Assembly (NCBI GenBank): GCA_022843745.1
Contig: JALHNB010000068.1
Location: 1 to 34,996 of the forward strand
From: Anaerolineae bacterium
GTDB taxonomy: Bacteria > Chloroflexota > Anaerolineae > Aggregatilineales > Phototrophicaceae
Length of the DNA stretch: 34,996 nt
Reading direction: 5' to 3'
Numbering within the stretch: the first letter of the stretch is position 1; every line of letters starts with the position of its first letter. This document shows positions 4,395 through 11,397 of the stretch, in pieces. Below the pieces are notes generated by a model. It searched no databases, was not told where the DNA came from, and saw only the letters and a program-made list of their open reading frames with translations. The translations under genes and the position numbers were made by a program.

Positions 4395-5633
4395 ATGCAG
4401 ATCGTATTGATGGCATCCGGCACGCGCGGCGATGTCCAGCCGATGATCGCGCTCGGCAAAGCGTTGAAAGCAGCAGGCCACTCCGTCCGCGTCATGGCAG
4501 GCTCGAATTTTTCGTCGTGGATTGAATCGCACGGCCTCGAAGCCTACCCGATCATCGACATGGAAGTCCTCATGCGGAGCGAACTCGGCGTGAAATGGGT
4601 CGAGAGCGCGAACCCGATGCAGCAGCTTAAATATATGAAAGCGCTGCTCGATGCCAACCAGGAGCGCTACGTCACCGATACGATCAACGGCACGGCGGGC
4701 GCGGAACTGCTTATCGGCGGCTTTGTCTCCGAGCCATTTTTGCAGGCCATCAGCGAAAAGCACGGCATCCCGCTGATTACCGCCGCGCTTCAGCCCTACC
4801 GCGCCACCCGCAGCGGCACTGCCACACTCATCCCCCTGCTCCCGCGTTCCAACAGCATCCTCAACGACTGGATGGGCATGATCGGTGTGCGTTTTATGTG
4901 GTCAGTCGCCGCCGATGTGACCAATATTTTGCGCACCAGACTCGGCTTGCCGCCGCATACCGCCGCGACCTATCAAAAAGCGATGCAAAAAATTCTCGCG
5001 ATTTACGCCGTCAGCCCACTCGTCATGCAGGATTCGACAGCTCGTATGACCGGCTACTGGTTTCTCGATGAGGACTACACCCCGCCCGCCGACCTGCTGA
5101 ATTTTATCGAGTCCGGCGACCCGCCCGTTTATGTCGGCTTCGGCAGCATGTCCAGCAGCGACCCGGCGCGTACCGTCAACATGATCGTTGATGCGCTGGC
5201 GAAAGTCGGAAAACGCGGCGTTTTAGCACGTGGGTGGAGTGGCGCGGCGGTGACAAACCTGCCCTCTCACGTCCATTTACTGGACAAAACGTCACATACC
5301 TGGCTGTTCCCACGTATGGCAGCGATTGTGCATCACGGCGGCGCGGGGACAACCGCCGCAGCGCTGCGTGCCGGAAAGCCCATGTTCCTCATCCCCCACC
5401 TCGGCGACCAGCCCTACTGGGGACGACGAATGCACGAACTCGGCGTGAGCGTCAAGCCGATCCCGCGCCCCAAACTGACCGCCGAAAATTTCACCTCAAG
5501 TCTGGACGCGCTTCTGCAAGACTCACGCATCCACGCCAACGCTGCCGCCCTCGGCGAAAAAATCCGCGCCGAAGATGGCATTAAAGAAGCGATGAATTGG
5601 ATCACCGGGATCATCAGACTGAGTGAGTGGTGA
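4395..5633 (+). CDS. GT1-type glycosyltransferase (UGT/MGT-like)
   Basis: 412 residues with a GT-B fold. The N-terminal Rossmann domain opens with MQIVLMASGTRGDVQPMIAL, the hallmark of macrolide/sterol/zeaxanthin-type glycosyltransferases. The C-terminal donor-binding domain carries VHHGGAGTTAAALRAGKP from residue 312, with HLGDQPYWGRR after it, where the conserved D-Q pair contacts the sugar. It probably glucosylates a lipid or natural product with a UDP-sugar, but the acceptor is unknown. The ATG at 4395 was chosen because gaaggtg lies 5-10 bp upstream; an in-frame ATG at 4359 has no comparable site. The last 36 codons (5526-5633) recur, diverged, at 9189-9296 beyond the next operon. Confidence 0.9.
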   Translation: MQIVLMASGTRGDVQPMIALGKALKAAGHSVRVMAGSNFSSWIESHGLEAYPIIDMEVLMRSELGVKWVESANPMQQLKYMKALLDANQERYVTDTINGTAGAELLIGGFVSEPFLQAISEKHGIPLITAALQPYRATRSGTATLIPLLPRSNSILNDWMGMIGVRFMWSVAADVTNILRTRLGLPPHTAATYQKAMQKILAIYAVSPLVMQDSTARMTGYWFLDEDYTPPADLLNFIESGDPPVYVGFGSMSSSDPARTVNMIVDALAKVGKRGVLARGWSGAAVTNLPSHVHLLDKTSHTWLFPRMAAIVHHGGAGTTAAALRAGKPMFLIPHLGDQPYWGRRMHELGVSVKPIPRPKLTAENFTSSLDALLQDSRIHANAAALGEKIRAEDGIKEAMNWITGIIRLSEW

Positions 5634-5819
5634 GTCGGTAACTCGCAGCACACATTAAATCCAGCCTGCTCGGAAGAATCCGCGATATTCATTCGCCAAC
5701 TCACACTGCCACCCATCAACCTCTAAAAAAACTCACCGAAACTTTTTCTCCCATACACACTCGTTATATACAGCATCACATCCGGGGGATTAACCACCTC
5801 GAAGGAATGAGTAGTGAAT

Positions 5820-5860: not shown

Positions 5861-5911
5861 ATGACAAACAACGATGAAACGAATACGGAGGATTGGCTAT
5901 GGCAGATGTAG
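5861..5911 (+). CDS. Possible 16-residue leader ORF
   Basis: The ORF reads MTNNDETNTEDWLWQM and stops at TAG 5909-5911. It has a good Shine-Dalgarno (gggag, about 7 bp before its ATG) and contains the ribosome-binding site and start codon of the next gene, overlapping it by 13 nt in another frame. Ribosomes translating it would pass over the downstream start, so it could couple or gate translation of the ApbE operon. The only sequence evidence is the ribosome-binding site and the overlap. Confidence 0.35.
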   Translation: MTNNDETNTEDWLWQM

Positions 5912-6351
5912 ACCGCACCAGAAAACTGCTTGTCCGCACGGCACTTGTCACCAGCAGCACCATTGCAACTCTGGTCGGTGCGCAAAATCTGGCCCTGCTG
6001 GACATTCATCAAATTACCTCAGACCCTATAGCGGTAGCCGAGCCAACGGCCATCCCAACAGCGGCCATTGTCTCGGTTTCTGAGGGGGCGACTGTCATGC
6101 AGGTAACGCCGACCATCGAGATTGTCCACGCCGCCCCCAGCGTAACCATCCTGCGGCGTGCGGGACAGGCCGGGCCGATTGAGTCCGTATCCGTTCAGCC
6201 CGCTTCAATCCAGCCCCCTGCCCCGGTGCAGGTCGCCCCGCCCCAGCCCGTGATCGTACAGGGAGAAGCGCCACCTCCTGTCATCATTCAGCAGGCTTCG
6301 GCCCCGTCGTCCTCTGGCGGGTCATCCTCACAAACGCAGTCAAGCCGATGA
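5899..6351 (+). CDS. Membrane-anchored Pro/Gln/Ser-rich protein of the ApbE operon
   Basis: 150 residues, family not recognised. The basic N-terminus (DRTRKLLVR) is followed by one moderately hydrophobic segment (about 14-35), consistent with a signal anchor and an extracytoplasmic remainder. From residue 95 it is low complexity, rich in Pro, Gln, Val and Ser, and it ends in a Ser-rich tail. Residues 61-65 read SEGAT, which weakly resembles the S/T-G-A-T acceptor motif to which ApbE attaches FMN through the Thr. There is no recognisable FMN-binding domain around it, so this is only a possibility. The start is the ATG at 5899, six bases after acggagga. The stop overlaps the ApbE start (ATGA), so the two are translationally coupled. 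Confidence 0.75.
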   Translation: MADVDRTRKLLVRTALVTSSTIATLVGAQNLALLDIHQITSDPIAVAEPTAIPTAAIVSVSEGATVMQVTPTIEIVHAAPSVTILRRAGQAGPIESVSVQPASIQPPAPVQVAPPQPVIVQGEAPPPVIIQQASAPSSSGGSSSQTQSSR

Positions 6352-7265
6352 TCGCCTCAACCACTTTCCGCGCAATGGGCTGTCAGGTCGAAATCAAGCT
6401 GTATGCTGTGGGCGCTGATGCCATCCTGAGCGAGATGCCTGCCCGATTTGATGCGCTCGAAAATCAGCTTTCGCGCTTTCGCCCCCAAAGCGAACTCATG
6501 CAGCTTAATGCACGGGCGGGCGAATGGGTCACGGTCAGCGCGGTGCTGTTCGAGAACATTCATATGGCGAAACACATGGCGCGGCTGACGGATGGATTGT
6601 TCAATCCGCTGGTACTCCCAGCGCTGATTGCCAGCGGCTATGACCGCAGTTTCGAGCAGATCTGTTCGCGCCCTGTTACAGCATCGCAGCCTGCCAACGA
6701 TTGGCGGTCTATCGAGTTGAACATCAAAAAAAGTCAGGTGCGCCTTCCCGCCAACAGCGCGATTGATCTGGGTGGCAGCGCTAAAGGCTGGACAGCCCAG
6801 CATATTGCCGATCACCTGGCAGATCACGGCGCATGTCTGGTCAATATCGGTGGTGATATTGTCGTAAACGGTGCGCCTGAAGGTCTACCCGGTTGGCAAA
6901 TTAACATCGCCGACCCGGATATCGATCTTGATCTGGCAGCGGTGTGGCTGCGCGATACAGCGATTGTCACCAGCGGTATTGACTATCGCCGCTGGACAAC
7001 CGCTGACGGCCAACAGCGTCATCACATCATCAATCCGCGCACCGGAGAGCCAGCAATGACAGATGTGCTTACAGCGACGATCATTCACCCTCACGCGCCT
7101 ACTGCCGAAGCCTACGCCAAAGCGGTTTTGCTCAAAGGCTGCCGCACGGGTCTGGATTGGCTCAACAGCCGTTGGCAGGCCGCTGGCCTGGTTGTCCAGC
7201 AAGACCGTGCAGTCGTTGCAACTACCAATTTCGTTTCGTACTTTCAGGAAAGGTTCACTCAATGA
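6348..7265 (+). CDS. apbE: FAD:protein FMN transferase (ApbE family)
   Basis: 305 residues. ApbE enzymes use FAD and Mg2+ to attach FMN covalently to a Thr/Ser of redox proteins. Motifs seen in order: RAMGCQVEI at about 8-16, TDGLFNPL at 81-88, DLGGSAKGW at 140-148, VNIGGD at 165-170, TSG at 208-210 and HIINPRTGEP at 226-235. These are the FAD- and metal-binding signatures, and all are intact. Most bacterial ApbEs are exported lipoproteins. This one has no signal peptide, and its start is fixed by a 4-nt ATGA overlap with the upstream stop, so it should stay in the cytoplasm. The next gene starts 4 nt before its stop. It is co-transcribed with a heme b membrane protein, which points to a flavin/heme electron-transfer system. 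Confidence 0.93.
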   Translation: MIASTTFRAMGCQVEIKLYAVGADAILSEMPARFDALENQLSRFRPQSELMQLNARAGEWVTVSAVLFENIHMAKHMARLTDGLFNPLVLPALIASGYDRSFEQICSRPVTASQPANDWRSIELNIKKSQVRLPANSAIDLGGSAKGWTAQHIADHLADHGACLVNIGGDIVVNGAPEGLPGWQINIADPDIDLDLAAVWLRDTAIVTSGIDYRRWTTADGQQRHHIINPRTGEPAMTDVLTATIIHPHAPTAEAYAKAVLLKGCRTGLDWLNSRWQAAGLVVQQDRAVVATTNFVSYFQERFTQ

Positions 7266-8404
7266 AACGCTTGCTTATCTCTTTGCTGATTTTCACCTTG
7301 CTCACCATCGCCCTGCCCATGCTCGCGCAGGACAGCGGCATCATCACGCTGAATGATGCGACTCCCGCTGTTGATGTCGTCGTGACGCTCTCACCCGATA
7401 CAACAGGTACGATTTCCCTCAATATGGATTCAGTCATCGTAACGCTGAAAGACAGCACAAATACGACGGTTTTCAGGGCGGCAGATGCTCGCCTTCACGC
7501 GCTCGAACTCAATATCGCGCCGAATACAGGCACCCATACCCTGACCGTTGAGCGCCTGCCGGGATTTTCTGAAGCTTATGTGAGCATCAATTCGCTTGCT
7601 GAACTGTCGATACCTGGCAGCGCCGCGCTGGTGCAAACGGACTTTTTGACCTTCAACCAGGAGGTGTCACTGCCGCTGGATGCCGCCAATCCCGGTGATA
7701 ACATCGCTGTCAATATCCCCGGAAATACCACCGGCATGATTTCAGCGACCTTCCCCGGCGCAAATGCCACGACTCAGCTTATCGACTCGCAGGGCATCAT
7801 CGTCGTCGAATCATATAATGGACACGTTGATGGCATTAACGCGGTACTGGATAGCGGAGAATACGACTTCACTGTGCTGGCAAATAATCTGGCTGATCGG
7901 GTCGTCATCGGGGTTCGCGCAGTTCCCGCCTCCGAAAGCGCTTATATCCCCCTTGAATTACCCGCAAGTAACACGGTGGTTTCGGGTTCCGGGATCGACT
8001 GTACAGCATCGGTCATGGTTAGCTCCGCCAATCTGCGCAGCGGCCCCGGTACTGGATACAGCGTGATCGACTATGGATACCGCGATGAAATCTTCTCTGT
8101 GGGCGGCATAAACCCCCAGAATAATTGGGTCGTGATTGGCACGGATTCCGGCAGTGCATGGCTCTCGGACAGCGTGTCTCAATTGAATGGTGACTGCGAC
8201 AGTCTGACCGTGTTTGATATTCCTCTCCGGGATGCGCAGCCTGCTCCAGTGATTATTATTACGCCCGAACCACAGGTCATTGTCCAGGCCGCACCATCGT
8301 CGGGTTCATCCGCCAATCAATCATCGAGTTCTCAATCGCACGATGACGACGACGATGACCATGACGACGATCATGGTGGCGATGACGAACATGACGACGA
8401 CTAG
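7262..8404 (+). CDS. Secreted SH3b-domain protein with Asp/His-rich tail
   Basis: 380 residues. A clear signal peptide (MKRLLISLLIFTLLTIALP, cleavage near the LAQ at 21-23) is followed by about 220 residues of beta-rich sequence with no recognised domain. Next comes a bacterial SH3 domain (about 245-305, with ANLRSGPGTGYSVI and NNWVVIG). The tail, after about 355, is almost only Asp and His with a few Gly and Glu. SH3b domains usually bind cell-wall peptides, and the acidic/His tail could chelate metal ions. The opening of the mature part (DSGIITLNDATPAVDVVVTL) loosely resembles that of the secreted protein at 15109. The ATG overlaps the apbE stop, so it belongs to the operon. Confidence 0.85.
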   Translation: MKRLLISLLIFTLLTIALPMLAQDSGIITLNDATPAVDVVVTLSPDTTGTISLNMDSVIVTLKDSTNTTVFRAADARLHALELNIAPNTGTHTLTVERLPGFSEAYVSINSLAELSIPGSAALVQTDFLTFNQEVSLPLDAANPGDNIAVNIPGNTTGMISATFPGANATTQLIDSQGIIVVESYNGHVDGINAVLDSGEYDFTVLANNLADRVVIGVRAVPASESAYIPLELPASNTVVSGSGIDCTASVMVSSANLRSGPGTGYSVIDYGYRDEIFSVGGINPQNNWVVIGTDSGSAWLSDSVSQLNGDCDSLTVFDIPLRDAQPAPVIIITPEPQVIVQAAPSSGSSANQSSSSQSHDDDDDDHDDDHGGDDEHDDD

Positions 8405-8416
8405 AGACACATCATG

Positions 8417-8443
8417 CCAACCGGGGTTAGCCGCCCCGGTTGG
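8417..8443 (+). terminator. Strong intra-operon hairpin
   Basis: CCAACCGGGG and CCCCGGTTGG form a perfect 10-bp stem with a 7-nt loop, between the SH3b gene and the heme protein gene. No T-run follows (tcgtaaagg), so it looks like a partial terminator, a processing site or an mRNA-stabilising hairpin rather than a full terminator. Confidence 0.5.
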
Positions 8444-8460
8444 TCGTAAAGGATCATGAA

Positions 8461-9141
8461 ATGACAAAATCAACGCAATGGATAGACTGGCTTGTGATCC
8501 TGTGTAGCCTGCTGATTATCGGGTTATCGGCCTGGAGCATGTCAGCCAGTGGGGTCTTCAACCTTGACCTCTTCAACGATCAGAAATTGGCATGGCATCT
8601 GGTTCGTTCGTCGGGCATTGTCGCTTATGTGCTGTTGATGGCCTCGACCATCTGGGGTTTGTTCCTCAGCAGCCAGATCGTCAAGGATTGGTCGCCGGGT
8701 GTCATCTCACTGACCCTCCACAGTACCATCTCCTGGTTGGCGCTGCTGCTTGGTCTGGGTCATGGCCTGCTGCTGATGTTCGATGATTATTTCACCTACA
8801 CCCTGGGCAGCATCTTCATCCCGTTCACTGGGCCGTATCGCCCTGAAGTTGTCGGCCTGGGTACGCTGGCCTTTTGGATTATTGTGGGTGTTGCCGTCAG
8901 CTTCCCGCTTCGAAAACGACTGGGAAACACGCTCTGGAAACGCCTGCATTATCTGAGTTATGTGGCTTTCGGACTTGTGACCGCGCACGGCTTATTCGCC
9001 GGGACAGATAGCGGACATAGCGGATTTCGTCTGCTCGTTGCCATCGGCGTAACGCTCGTGATACTGCTTGTCGGAATAAGATTGGGCAAAGACCAGGCCA
9101 AATCACCCCATCCAGCCACGCGAAAAGGTGCTGCCAGTTAA
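8461..9141 (+). CDS. Ferric-reductase-like transmembrane heme b protein
   Basis: 226 residues with about six membrane helices. Two helices carry the paired histidines of the ferric reductase-like domain: H87/H101 (in LHSTISW...GLGHG) and H163/H176 (LHYLSY...TAHGLFAGTDSG). This is the spacing that holds two b hemes across the membrane. There is no FAD/NAD(P)H-binding cytosolic domain, so, like MsrQ, it would take electrons from another flavoprotein or from quinol. Its neighbour ApbE makes covalent FMN carriers, which suggests a short flavin-heme chain delivering electrons outward. The ATG at 8461 was chosen for the aaagga upstream; an in-frame GTG at 8440 lies inside the hairpin. Confidence 0.88.
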   Translation: MTKSTQWIDWLVILCSLLIIGLSAWSMSASGVFNLDLFNDQKLAWHLVRSSGIVAYVLLMASTIWGLFLSSQIVKDWSPGVISLTLHSTISWLALLLGLGHGLLLMFDDYFTYTLGSIFIPFTGPYRPEVVGLGTLAFWIIVGVAVSFPLRKRLGNTLWKRLHYLSYVAFGLVTAHGLFAGTDSGHSGFRLLVAIGVTLVILLVGIRLGKDQAKSPHPATRKGAAS

Positions 9142-9159
9142 GCATGTCAGACTTGGGTA

Positions 9160-9185
9160 AAGTGCCAGTCTTCTGGCTGGCACTT
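9160..9185 (+). terminator. Hairpin terminator after the ApbE operon
   Basis: AAGTGCCAG and CTGGCACTT form a perfect 9-bp stem with an 8-nt loop, starting 18 bp after the last stop of the operon. The T-tract is poor. It abuts the glycosyltransferase relic. Confidence 0.55.
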
Positions 9186-9188
9186 CTG

Positions 9189-9296
9189 CGCATCCATGCC
9201 AACGCCGCCGCCCTCGGCGAAAAAATCCGCTCCGAACAGGGAATCGAAAACGCCATGAGTTGGATCACCGGGATTATCAGACCGAGCGAGTGGTGA
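9189..9296 (+). pseudogene. Relic of the 3' end of a glycosyltransferase gene
   Basis: These 36 codons, ending in TGA, match the last 36 codons of the intact glycosyltransferase (5526-5633). By my count 93 of 108 bases are identical. The frame and stop are kept, and several of the changes are silent. The relic encodes RIHANAAALGEKIRSE and later SWITGIIRPSEW. It has no start or catalytic domain and cannot be functional. It lies on the far side of the four-gene ApbE operon from its intact counterpart. Confidence 0.88.
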
Positions 9297-9378
9297 GTAA
9301 TCGGAGGTTGGTTCGTTAGTTTCTAGCAGACGGTAAAAGCTACAATAATCACTAGGGTAGCTATCTCGGAGTTCTGCT

Positions 9379-11397
9379 ATGCGTGTATTTATCGCTTTTT
9401 TGCTCACGTTGATTGTTTATTCGGTATCGCTTGCGGAAGATTTGCCCTATCACGAAATCGACATGGCGGAAAAAGGCGCAGTCAATGTCATAGCCTGGAA
9501 ACCTGACGAGAGCCTACTGGCGGTTGGCGGCGACGGTGGGATATGGTTTTATAACGATTTAGGTCAGGAAGTCGCGTCTCTGGATAGCGAAAATGTAACC
9601 GACTTTGCCTGGAGTCCCAACGCCGAAACGTTGGCGGTCAGCACCGCAGACCACAAAATAACGTTCTGGCATTATCAGGCAGATGGCCTAACGTTTGAAA
9701 AGACAATCCAGGCCGAAGGGGATCGAATCAATTCGCTGGCGTTTAGCCCGGATGAAAAATATATCGCTGCGACAAGCTCCGACGAAATTGAATATTATTC
9801 TGACAGCTATCGCATATTTCACCGTTTGCGCGTGTATGAAACTGCAACCGGCGCGTTGATTTTTACATCCGATCCAAGCGGCGGAATTCTCAGTCATCGG
9901 TACGCGCTCAATATGATTCAATGGAGCGCAGACGGGGAACGACTGCTTACATTCGGTGGGCCATATCGAAATTTGGTTGTGTATGATGCTAATACCTGGG
10001 ATATTCTGGCCTCAGCAGAGCATAGGGGTGAACTAATCACAATGACTGCTGATCCGACGCTCATGACCATTTTTTTCAGTGCAGGCTCTTTTTACGAATA
10101 CGATGATTACTCAGCACACCTATTCCAAATCTATAGATTAAACAATGCCCTTCTTGGGAACTTATCAGCTTATCAGGAAGTCTCAGCATTGATTACTGCT
10201 CTCGTGTGGCAACCTGTCCCTCATCTTGTTGCCTCAGCAGAAGAATCCGGAGATATTCGAATCTGGCATCTGAAAAACGACGATACTGCCGAGCCTGTTT
10301 CAACCCTTCGCGCCCATCTAGCGCCTGTACGGTTGCTTGCCTGGGATAGCAGCGGAACAAAGCTTGCAGGTGCAGACGAAAATAACGTTGTCTTAATCTG
10401 GCATGACATTGAACAGGATTACACCCCGCCGGGTTTTTATCCAACCCACACAATTCCCCTGCCTGATAGCGCCCAAATATTTACCTGGAGTGGCGATGGC
10501 AAATGGCTTGTGGTGGGCGGCGAAAAAGAACTCGCATTTTACGATGCAGCCCGTCGCGTCCAGGTTGCGTCGATTCCAATGCCGTTCGAAGGGGATATTC
10601 GACAACTTCAGTTTTCTGAAGATAACACTCGTCTTTTAATCTCAAATTATGAAACTATTCAGGTGATGGCTGTAGCCGTAGACGGCGACGAGATAACCCT
10701 CAGCCCCATTGCATCCCACAACCCGGAAACATCTTTTGGCAATCCAGCACTTAGCCCAGATGGTACTGTGGTTGCCTATAACTTCGGCTTCTATGGAGGT
10801 GGTCTTGAATTTCACGATGGACAGCCGCAGACCAGACTCTGGAATATTGATACAGGCGAGATTCGTGAATTGCATACGGGCTATCTCAGCCGACTCTTAT
10901 GGGGTCCGGACAGCTCAATGTTATTGACTGGCCTTCAGAGTCAGCCGCTTGCGCGTATTCACGATATTGTGACGGACACTTCACGAGTTGATTTTTGGGG
11001 ATTACAACCTTTTTGCTGTGGTAGTGGGTACAGTCCACGCGGCCTGGATTGGCAAGGCGACCATGTTGCTATGACGAGCTGGGGGCAAGTCGGCATCTGG
11101 CAGGTGGAATACAGTGAAGGTACTCTGAACATCACAAACGAGATCACGTTCTTGAGAAAGATAACCGCTGTAAAACTTTCACCTGATGGCAGGTTGTTGG
11201 CTGGGGTTGGTGAAAATCTGTATATATGGGATACCCAAAGCGGACGGCCATTGCGGATAATGAACAATGTATCGGATCAGATCGCTTGGTCGCCCGATGG
11301 ACGCACATTGGCCTCATTCGATCTATACCCCGATTTTGATGAAAAGCAGCTTCTCCTATGGGAGATCGACCCGAATATGGCATCCTCAACCCCATAA
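9379..11397 (+). CDS. Secreted WD40 beta-propeller protein
   Basis: 672 residues. The signal peptide is MRVFIAFLLTLIVYSVSLA. The rest is a series of WD40 blades with the recurring pattern 'W-S-P-D/N-x-x-x-L-A' (AWKPDESLLAVGG, AWSPNAETLAVST, AFSPDEKYIAATS, AWDSSGTKLAGAD, KLSPDGRLLAGVG, AWSPDGRTLASFD). There are enough blades for two propellers. It is probably an extracytoplasmic binding or scaffold protein, and no catalytic motif is visible. It is somewhat more AT-rich than its neighbours. The ATG follows cggag. A similar but shorter WD40 protein lies at 19215. Confidence 0.88.
   Translation: MRVFIAFLLTLIVYSVSLAEDLPYHEIDMAEKGAVNVIAWKPDESLLAVGGDGGIWFYNDLGQEVASLDSENVTDFAWSPNAETLAVSTADHKITFWHYQADGLTFEKTIQAEGDRINSLAFSPDEKYIAATSSDEIEYYSDSYRIFHRLRVYETATGALIFTSDPSGGILSHRYALNMIQWSADGERLLTFGGPYRNLVVYDANTWDILASAEHRGELITMTADPTLMTIFFSAGSFYEYDDYSAHLFQIYRLNNALLGNLSAYQEVSALITALVWQPVPHLVASAEESGDIRIWHLKNDDTAEPVSTLRAHLAPVRLLAWDSSGTKLAGADENNVVLIWHDIEQDYTPPGFYPTHTIPLPDSAQIFTWSGDGKWLVVGGEKELAFYDAARRVQVASIPMPFEGDIRQLQFSEDNTRLLISNYETIQVMAVAVDGDEITLSPIASHNPETSFGNPALSPDGTVVAYNFGFYGGGLEFHDGQPQTRLWNIDTGEIRELHTGYLSRLLWGPDSSMLLTGLQSQPLARIHDIVTDTSRVDFWGLQPFCCGSGYSPRGLDWQGDHVAMTSWGQVGIWQVEYSEGTLNITNEITFLRKITAVKLSPDGRLLAGVGENLYIWDTQSGRPLRIMNNVSDQIAWSPDGRTLASFDLYPDFDEKQLLLWEIDPNMASSTP

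Follow-up and report, generated by a model that had tools for sequence, protein, structure and literature searches.

The window analysed here is the whole 34,996-nucleotide (nt) contig JALHNB010000068.1 of an Anaerolineae bacterium (Chloroflexota; assembly GCA_022843745.1), one contig of a genome of 7.96 Mb that is 98.6% complete. It carries a cluster of four genes, all on the plus strand at 5899-9141, encoding a small anchored protein (P0001), an ApbE-family transferase of flavin mononucleotide (FMN) from flavin adenine dinucleotide (FAD) (P0002, gene apbE), an exported protein with a beta-sandwich part and an SH3b domain (P0003), and a bis-heme membrane protein (P0004; Table 1). A first-pass annotation, made from the sequence alone, had described these gene types (an anchored protein rich in Pro and Gln, ApbE, an SH3b protein with an Asp/His tail, a bis-heme membrane protein) and their tight coupling, and both descriptions were borne out. 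In particular, P0001 and apbE overlap by ATGA at 6348, apbE and P0003 overlap by 4 nt at 7262, and 56 nt separate P0003 from P0004. The start of the cluster given in that annotation, 5861, is the ATG of a frame 16 codons long, and conservation places the start at 5899.

Table 1. Coordinates of the cluster genes, of their proposed functional elements and of the flanking repeat in the window (aa, amino acids; NAD, nicotinamide adenine dinucleotide)
Feature	Position	Strand	Basis or context
P0001, 150 aa, N-terminally anchored Pro/Gln-rich arm, proposed FMN carrier	5899..6351	+	23-row alignment; tail conservation
Conserved anchor helix of P0001, RKLLVR..LVT..T.AT..GAQ.LA.LD	5932..6003	+	alignment, hydropathy
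C-terminal tail T-Q-S-S-R of P0001, proposed acceptor Ser149 (alternatives Ser148, Thr146)	6334..6348	+	conservation, codons, phylum-wide tail statistics
P0002, ApbE, FAD:protein FMN transferase family, 305 aa	6348..7265	+	PF02424, E 1.2e-57; PDB relatives
Mg-site stretch of ApbE, E254-A-Y-A-K258 (canonical D-A-L-S-T)	7107..7121	+	alignments
P0003, 380 aa, exported; beta-sandwich part, SH3b domain, disordered acidic/His tail	7262..8404	+	Pfam, model
Acidic/His tail of P0003, HDDDDDDHDDDHGGDDEHDDD	8339..8401	+	sequence
P0004, 226 aa, membrane protein, two hemes b predicted, no FAD/NAD domain	8461..9141	+	Pfam, alignment, model
Repeat copy 1 (reference), 110 nt	5526..5635	+	3' end of the glycosyltransferase-like gene before the operon
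Repeat copy 2, 110 nt, 86%	9189..9298	+	after the operon; orphan gene fragment

Relatives of P0004 occur in 30 places in 26 of 121 genomes, the host genome included. The four genes form a unit, since 24 of these 30 loci, the window among them, keep all of them in the same order on one strand, and the cluster is a real, conserved and widespread module. The first-pass annotation had proposed to check whether the 150- and 380-residue proteins co-occur with apbE and the heme gene, and in these 24 loci they do. Among the other six loci, one (L036) has replaced parts, and five (L037, L038, L044, L048, L050) are cut by contig ends or fragmentary. Relatives without an adjacent apbE, named in the same annotation as a point that would speak against the system, do exist, but their genomes carry an ApbE elsewhere. 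The genomes with relatives are nearly all metagenome-assembled genomes (MAGs) of Chloroflexota, mostly Anaerolineae, with one from Aggregatilineales. One record labelled Pleurocapsa minor (L067) holds a heme protein copy 65% identical to that of the window; this MAG is probably mislabelled or contaminated.

The genome has a single ApbE. The lack of an FMN-binding-domain acceptor, noticed earlier for the neighbourhood, extends to the whole genome: the FMN_bind profile (PF04205) has no match in it, nor does a Pfam scan find the domain in P0001, P0003 or P0004. A hidden FMN_bind gene was considered, but none matched, and the profile search revealed no conventional FMN-binding protein elsewhere that could serve as the substrate. 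DUF2271 (PF10029), DUF3570 (PF12094) and NQR2_RnfD/NqrB (PF03116) gave 0 matches each, so that four acceptor families were covered, flavinylated flavodoxin and FMN_red types being left out of the search.

The ApbE itself is well recognizable (PF02424, 195.9 bits against a cut-off of 25.6) and retains by alignment the catalytic residues Ser209 (Thr in L034, L058 and L059) and His226. It is of the cytosolic type, with no signal peptide seen by eye. Its metal site is changed. In FmnB (PMC8906456), the ligands of one Mg are Asp301, Ser304 and Ala187, and Thr305 joins them in the complex with adenosine triphosphate; the Asp, Ser and Thr of FmnB correspond here to Glu254, Ala257 and Lys258.

P0001 has no match in a Pfam scan. 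Judging by charge, its anchor helix, led by a basic flank, would be oriented N-in/C-out, and the pattern [RK][RK]xxVR (with RR in L058 and L059) is suggestive of a twin-arginine translocation signal. The anchor helix and a short motif in the middle of the protein are conserved, the Pro-rich stretch before the C-terminus varies, and the C-terminus itself reads [ST]-[ST]-R-stop in all 24 copies, the window included. The codons at position -2 in these copies are AGC for Ser (14), TCN for Ser (7) and Thr codons (3); because Ser is encoded by both AGC and TCN, selection at this position acts on the amino acid rather than on the DNA. In five relatives at a greater distance, the C-termini read TQSSR, STRSSR, STRSSR, SGSSK and RTSRR. 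The cassette of L036 has been rebuilt: here the acidic tail sits on a coiled-coil-like protein, and apbE and the heme gene are again preceded by the gene of an anchored protein that ends in GGGSSR-stop and does not match P0001 in sequence. Both tails, the acidic one and the SSR one, thus outlast the proteins that carry them. The overlap with apbE was considered as the cause of the tail and rejected, since a distance of more than 20 nt separates 22 of 95 distinct tails from the start of the ApbE domain, and since synonymous codons differ.

For a phylum-wide view, the neighbourhoods of 144 ApbE frames were compared. The loci were chosen rather than drawn at random, and comprise relatives, the top-scoring heme matches, ApbEs for the most part from genomes lacking FMN_bind, and loci with FMN_bind for comparison. 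Sorted by their Mg-site stretch, 113 ApbEs are of the Lys type (Lys at the Thr position), 17 of the Asn type (A-N-x-x-[SA]-T), and the remaining 14 are mostly canonical (A-D-x-x-x-T). The strict tail pattern, [ST]-x-[AGSTVHL]-[ST]-[RK]0-2-stop, was sought in an upstream frame picked by hydropathy alone, and ApbE frames without such a pick were dropped (18/113 Lys-type, 5/17 Asn-type, 6/14 of the rest). In Chloroflexota, the tail stands upstream of apbE in 83/95 Lys-type and 11/12 Asn-type picks, together spanning 24 named families, and in 1/8 of the rest; this single case is L212, next to a heme gene and with A-E-I-A-S-L. An earlier pick rule favouring Ser/Thr-rich ends gave 86/97 for the Lys type, with [ST]-[ST]-R ends in 58 of these 97, and eight loci left without a pick by it have tails recognizable by eye (L126, L131, L153, L158, L195, L224, L233, L272). 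As a background, the pattern occurs at 4/133 heme protein C-termini, 0/144 ApbEs and 264/13973 (2%) of all frames except the picks, non-genes included. In one family (L122, L124, L128, L134) the tail takes the variant form [TR]-Q-S-G-[KRAT]-x-(x)-P-stop, in which a few residues follow the Ser.

Nine of the 11 Asn-type hits are genuine SGGS ends (L215, L220, L241, L242, L244, L249, L250, L252, L253). The other two (L218, L254) arose by chance in a ferredoxin-like frame; in those loci, SGGS-type tails are found next to the heme gene. As judged by motif, S-G-G-S-stop is intermediate between the SSR tail and classical SGAT, and it resembles the known S-G-A-[ST] closely. A ferredoxin-like frame, identified by eye, directly precedes the Asn-type apbE in L218, L228, L234 and L254. 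A protein with [DN]..[ST]GA[ST] lies beside ApbE in 4/8 of the rest, in 0/97 Lys-type loci (window included) and in 0/12 Asn-type loci. The proposed acceptor site and the ApbE type change together in these counts, in which kinship is ignored, as it is in the Fisher tests of ApbE type against tail and of the ApbE-heme link.

P0004 falls just short of the Ferric_reduct profile (PF01794, 26.3 bits against a cut-off of 28). Four His residues (87, 101, 163 and 176), two on each of two helices, are invariant in 25 aligned sequences including that of the window, and this invariance supports two hemes. The P0004 model fits the membrane domains of NADPH oxidase, Dcytb and STEAP (VIA-align Z 12-14), with Z 14.2-14.3 for SpNOX, where helical bundles can reach about 13 by chance; a Foldseek search with P0004 returned nothing under E 0.001. 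In 400 Chloroflexota genomes drawn evenly, the profiles match heme proteins in 209, FMN_bind in 95 and ApbE in 243, and the heme protein is present in 141 of the 151 genomes having ApbE and no FMN_bind.

Nineteen heme frames have no ApbE directly upstream. In eight of them (L130, L136, L132, L138, L140, L143, L218, L254) a gene with the tail directly precedes the heme gene, and four of these loci (L132, L138, L218, L254) carry an ApbE at another place of the same stretch. An exported partner or haem_bd protein stands in between in six more, as in the layout of the family (L045, L048, L049, L050, L052, L088), and three are cut or fragmentary (L037, L038, L234). A tail gene before the heme gene in the absence of an adjacent ApbE agrees with a carrier acting together with the heme protein. 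One locus (L132) contains two tandem tail-heme pairs with tails TTGGSK and STGGSK, two acidic-tail proteins and one ApbE.

P0003 has a weak SH3_3 match (23.7 bits, cut-off 27), and its model consists of beta-sandwich parts, an SH3b domain and the low-confidence acidic tail, presumably disordered. The best match in a fold search, the tandem collagen-binding domain 5iku, has a TM-score of only 0.22 of the query, so that we describe the fold just as a beta-sandwich. The acidic tail is present in all of the 27 P0003 relatives listed with their ends. Such tails, from which the first-pass annotation suggested metal reduction at the wall as a possible role, are common to unrelated exported partners: SH3b (window), PepSY (L127, L139, L150) and coiled coil-like (L036) proteins, and a haem_bd cytochrome. 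A gene for a CxxCH protein lies between P0003 and P0004 in six loci (L043, L044, L045, L049, L050, L052); that of L052 is a PF14376 Haem_bd protein by scan, a family also found in L150 at another cluster position, and the CxxCH proteins of L044 and L052 end in an acidic tail. The variety of partners speaks for electron delivery to proteins outside. The SH3b protein was also considered as the acceptor and rejected: its conserved S-G-P-G stretch is the signature of SH3b domains, and the PepSY and coiled-coil partners have no SH3 match.

Taken together, these observations suggest that ApbE attaches FMN to a C-terminal Ser or Thr of the flexible arm of P0001, which would take electrons from the heme protein; we put the probability of this reading at roughly 0.72. 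The cluster would be a membrane electron-export module with the arm as its flavin carrier. The bis-heme b protein would move electrons across the membrane, presumably from quinol, since P0004 has no FAD/NAD domain. ApbE would transfer FMN from FAD to the Ser or Thr of [ST]-x-small-[ST](-R/K)-stop, here most likely Ser149, a site that may be regarded as a relaxed [ST]-G-A-[ST], located not in an FMN_bind domain but in the final residues of a disordered arm rich in Pro. The arm could then swing its FMN between the outer heme and the exported acidic-tail partner (here the SH3b protein) or a monoheme cytochrome. The active site of ApbE would have changed alongside its substrate, with Asp/Thr at the Mg site becoming Glu/Lys. 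In NqrC a Lys of the substrate activates the acceptor Thr, as stated in a review (PMC12052999); speculatively, the Lys of ApbE or the Arg of the tail might take over this role.

Several points weigh against this reading. The flavinylation of P0001 is a proposal from comparison, albeit a strong one by comparative standards, and the tail has neither the Asp nor the Gly-Ala of the known motif D-x-x-[ST]-G-A-[ST]. A site without Asp is plausible because Asp replacement is reported, in the same review (PMC12052999), to have a minor effect only. The changes from Asp to Glu and from Thr to Lys at the Mg site could alter the chemistry. Since ApbE looks cytosolic and the tail is expected to end outside, modification would have to precede export. 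The first-pass annotation had seen in this topology a contradiction that made the system unusual; it is ordinary in the phylum, since in comparator loci with anchored FMN_bind proteins (L262, L263, L265-L269) the ApbE sequence, by eye, likewise begins with the domain itself and shows no signal peptide, so that modification before export seems to apply there too. Moreover, 12 of the 95 Lys-type picks deviate from the strict pattern: eight are near fits (GGGSSR, PGQSSR, VGRSSR, TTSSSRP, TTQSGKVVP and the like), L121 and L154 end in RTRQSGG and TSTKSPAH, and in L127 and L230 wrong frames were picked, NTRSSR being seen in the neighbourhood. L141 and L152, two of the 19 cases without ApbE directly upstream, showed no tail in front of the heme gene. 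Finally, the heme protein is also present in 53 of the 92 genomes having both ApbE and FMN_bind, and among the 209 genomes matched by the heme profile, 15 lack ApbE.

The tail might instead be a docking or recognition element for ApbE or the heme protein, with FMN attached elsewhere, e.g. in the APSIxILR motif in the middle of P0001 or in P0003. The conservation of this motif and of the anchor helix agrees with such a role, as does the persistence of the tail beside heme genes with no ApbE directly upstream (8/19), which docking to the heme protein would produce as well. Still, L036 and the distant families keep the tail while the rest of the protein is not recognizably related, and position -2 exchanges solely Ser and Thr in 24 copies (other conserved Ser/Thr were sought by eye only), so that we consider docking unlikely. 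It is less likely still that this ApbE is no longer a protein FMN transferase and splits FAD to FMN and adenosine monophosphate, the FMN being used non-covalently and the tail being otherwise employed. The Glu/Lys replacements at the Mg site are compatible with this, and FAD pyrophosphatases of the Ftp type exist, as described in work on Treponema Ftp (PMC4767422), but the catalytic Ser and His are retained, and the pairing of ApbE types with tail types argues for a protein substrate.

An unlinked, unrecognized acceptor elsewhere in the genome seems very improbable given that 24 of 30 loci hold the four genes as one tight unit, and given the ApbE-heme link across 400 genomes (uncorrected for kinship), even though four acceptor families were tested and the flavinylated flavodoxin and FMN_red types lie outside that test. 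The acceptor favoured in the first-pass annotation, Thr65 of S-E-G-A-T in P0001, can practically be set aside. The sequence is there as described and resembles [ST]-G-A-[ST], and L032 has SAGAT in the same variable region; SEGAT itself is found solely in the window copy, and the other 22 of 24 copies have no [ST]-(x)-G-A-[ST]. That annotation was right in its choice of the 150-residue protein as the best acceptor candidate, but the extreme C-terminus is a better site than Thr65.

The tail acceptor would be a flavin attachment site of a kind that appears to be undescribed: a literature search, in which subscription papers and preprints were thinly covered, found no reports of a C-terminal tail as an ApbE substrate. 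Meheust et al. 2021 (PMC8238504) indicate that orphan ApbEs remain, and describe MsrQ-like flavinylation clusters in which apbE stands beside a PF01794-type bis-heme membrane protein; here apbE is likewise clustered with P0004, which agrees with that type in fold but scores just under the profile cut-off. Those clusters have FMN_bind (typically, not universally), unlike the present one, where moreover ApbE has no visible signal peptide and a C-terminal tail is the proposed acceptor. Like the FMN_bind, NqrC and RnfG substrates, P0001 would be an exported or membrane-bound protein modified by ApbE at a Ser or Thr within an [ST]-x-small-[ST] core; it differs from them by the lack of an FMN_bind domain and of the Asp, and by having the site among the last residues of a disordered arm. 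Besides, the Gly of the motif is Arg, Gln or Lys in most tails, as counted on tails pre-selected by the pattern. Flavodoxin and FMN_red have been added to the ApbE substrates (Huang et al. 2024, PMC11334425). In that paper, the site of flavinylated FMN_red also lies in a disordered C-terminal stretch, but with a motif of the known kind and the flavin at a known FMN-binding domain, whereas P0001 has no recognized flavin domain. The cytosolic ApbE of Klebsiella (review PMC12052999) has no signal peptide either; unlike the ApbE here, it acts on a soluble fumarate reductase that carries the known motif. The membrane cytochromes of the NOX, STEAP and Dcytb kind have a fold like that of P0004, which itself has no FAD/NADPH domain.

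Similar layouts occur in other phyla. Among 433 matched plasmid records, six regions were opened, and on plasmids of Psychrobacter, Mycolicibacterium, Arthrobacter and Rhodococcus a comparable tail stands before apbE. Plasmid PsyG_26 of Psychrobacter sp. G encodes a PepSY protein whose end is charged and rich in D/H/K, a tail protein (104 residues, anchored, ending in A-R-T-R-S-S-Q), a Lys-type ApbE, a heme protein and a VIT-family protein; a VIT gene is also carried by some MsrQ-like clusters (PMC8238504). In Arthrobacter D5-1 and Rhodococcus BH4, unannotated frames ending in T-T-R-A-S and R-S-A-G-S, respectively, precede an Asn-type apbE and a gene resembling ferric reductases; neither region showed a partner with an acidic tail. 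In Mycolicibacterium aubagnense one protein has an acidic tail and another ends in S-K-A-S-G-G, and weak examples are provided by Streptomyces (end NSGNGS) and Alicyclobacillus (end SSASSP). We regard it as fairly probable that bacteria have a class of ApbE substrates without any flavin-binding domain, with FMN on an extreme C-terminal Ser or Thr of a disordered membrane-tethered arm and ApbEs with a rebuilt metal site. This class would stand behind most orphan ApbEs of Chloroflexota and would extend to Pseudomonadota and Actinomycetota, and possibly to Bacillota. If true, orphan ApbEs across a whole phylum gain a concrete substrate, the notion of what can be an ApbE site changes, and a C-terminal tag of about five residues is on offer.

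The surroundings of the cluster show some further features. The operon is flanked by a 110-nt direct repeat (86%), as if it had been inserted into, or duplicated with, the glycosyltransferase-like gene. Genes for a response regulator and a histidine kinase or ATP-binding protein lie near the cluster in L036 and L037 (by eye), L276, L279 and L280, and from these neighbours the cluster may be under two-component regulation. The gene downstream of the cluster in the window (9379-11397) encodes a 672-aa protein that has, by eye, the look of WD40-type repeats.

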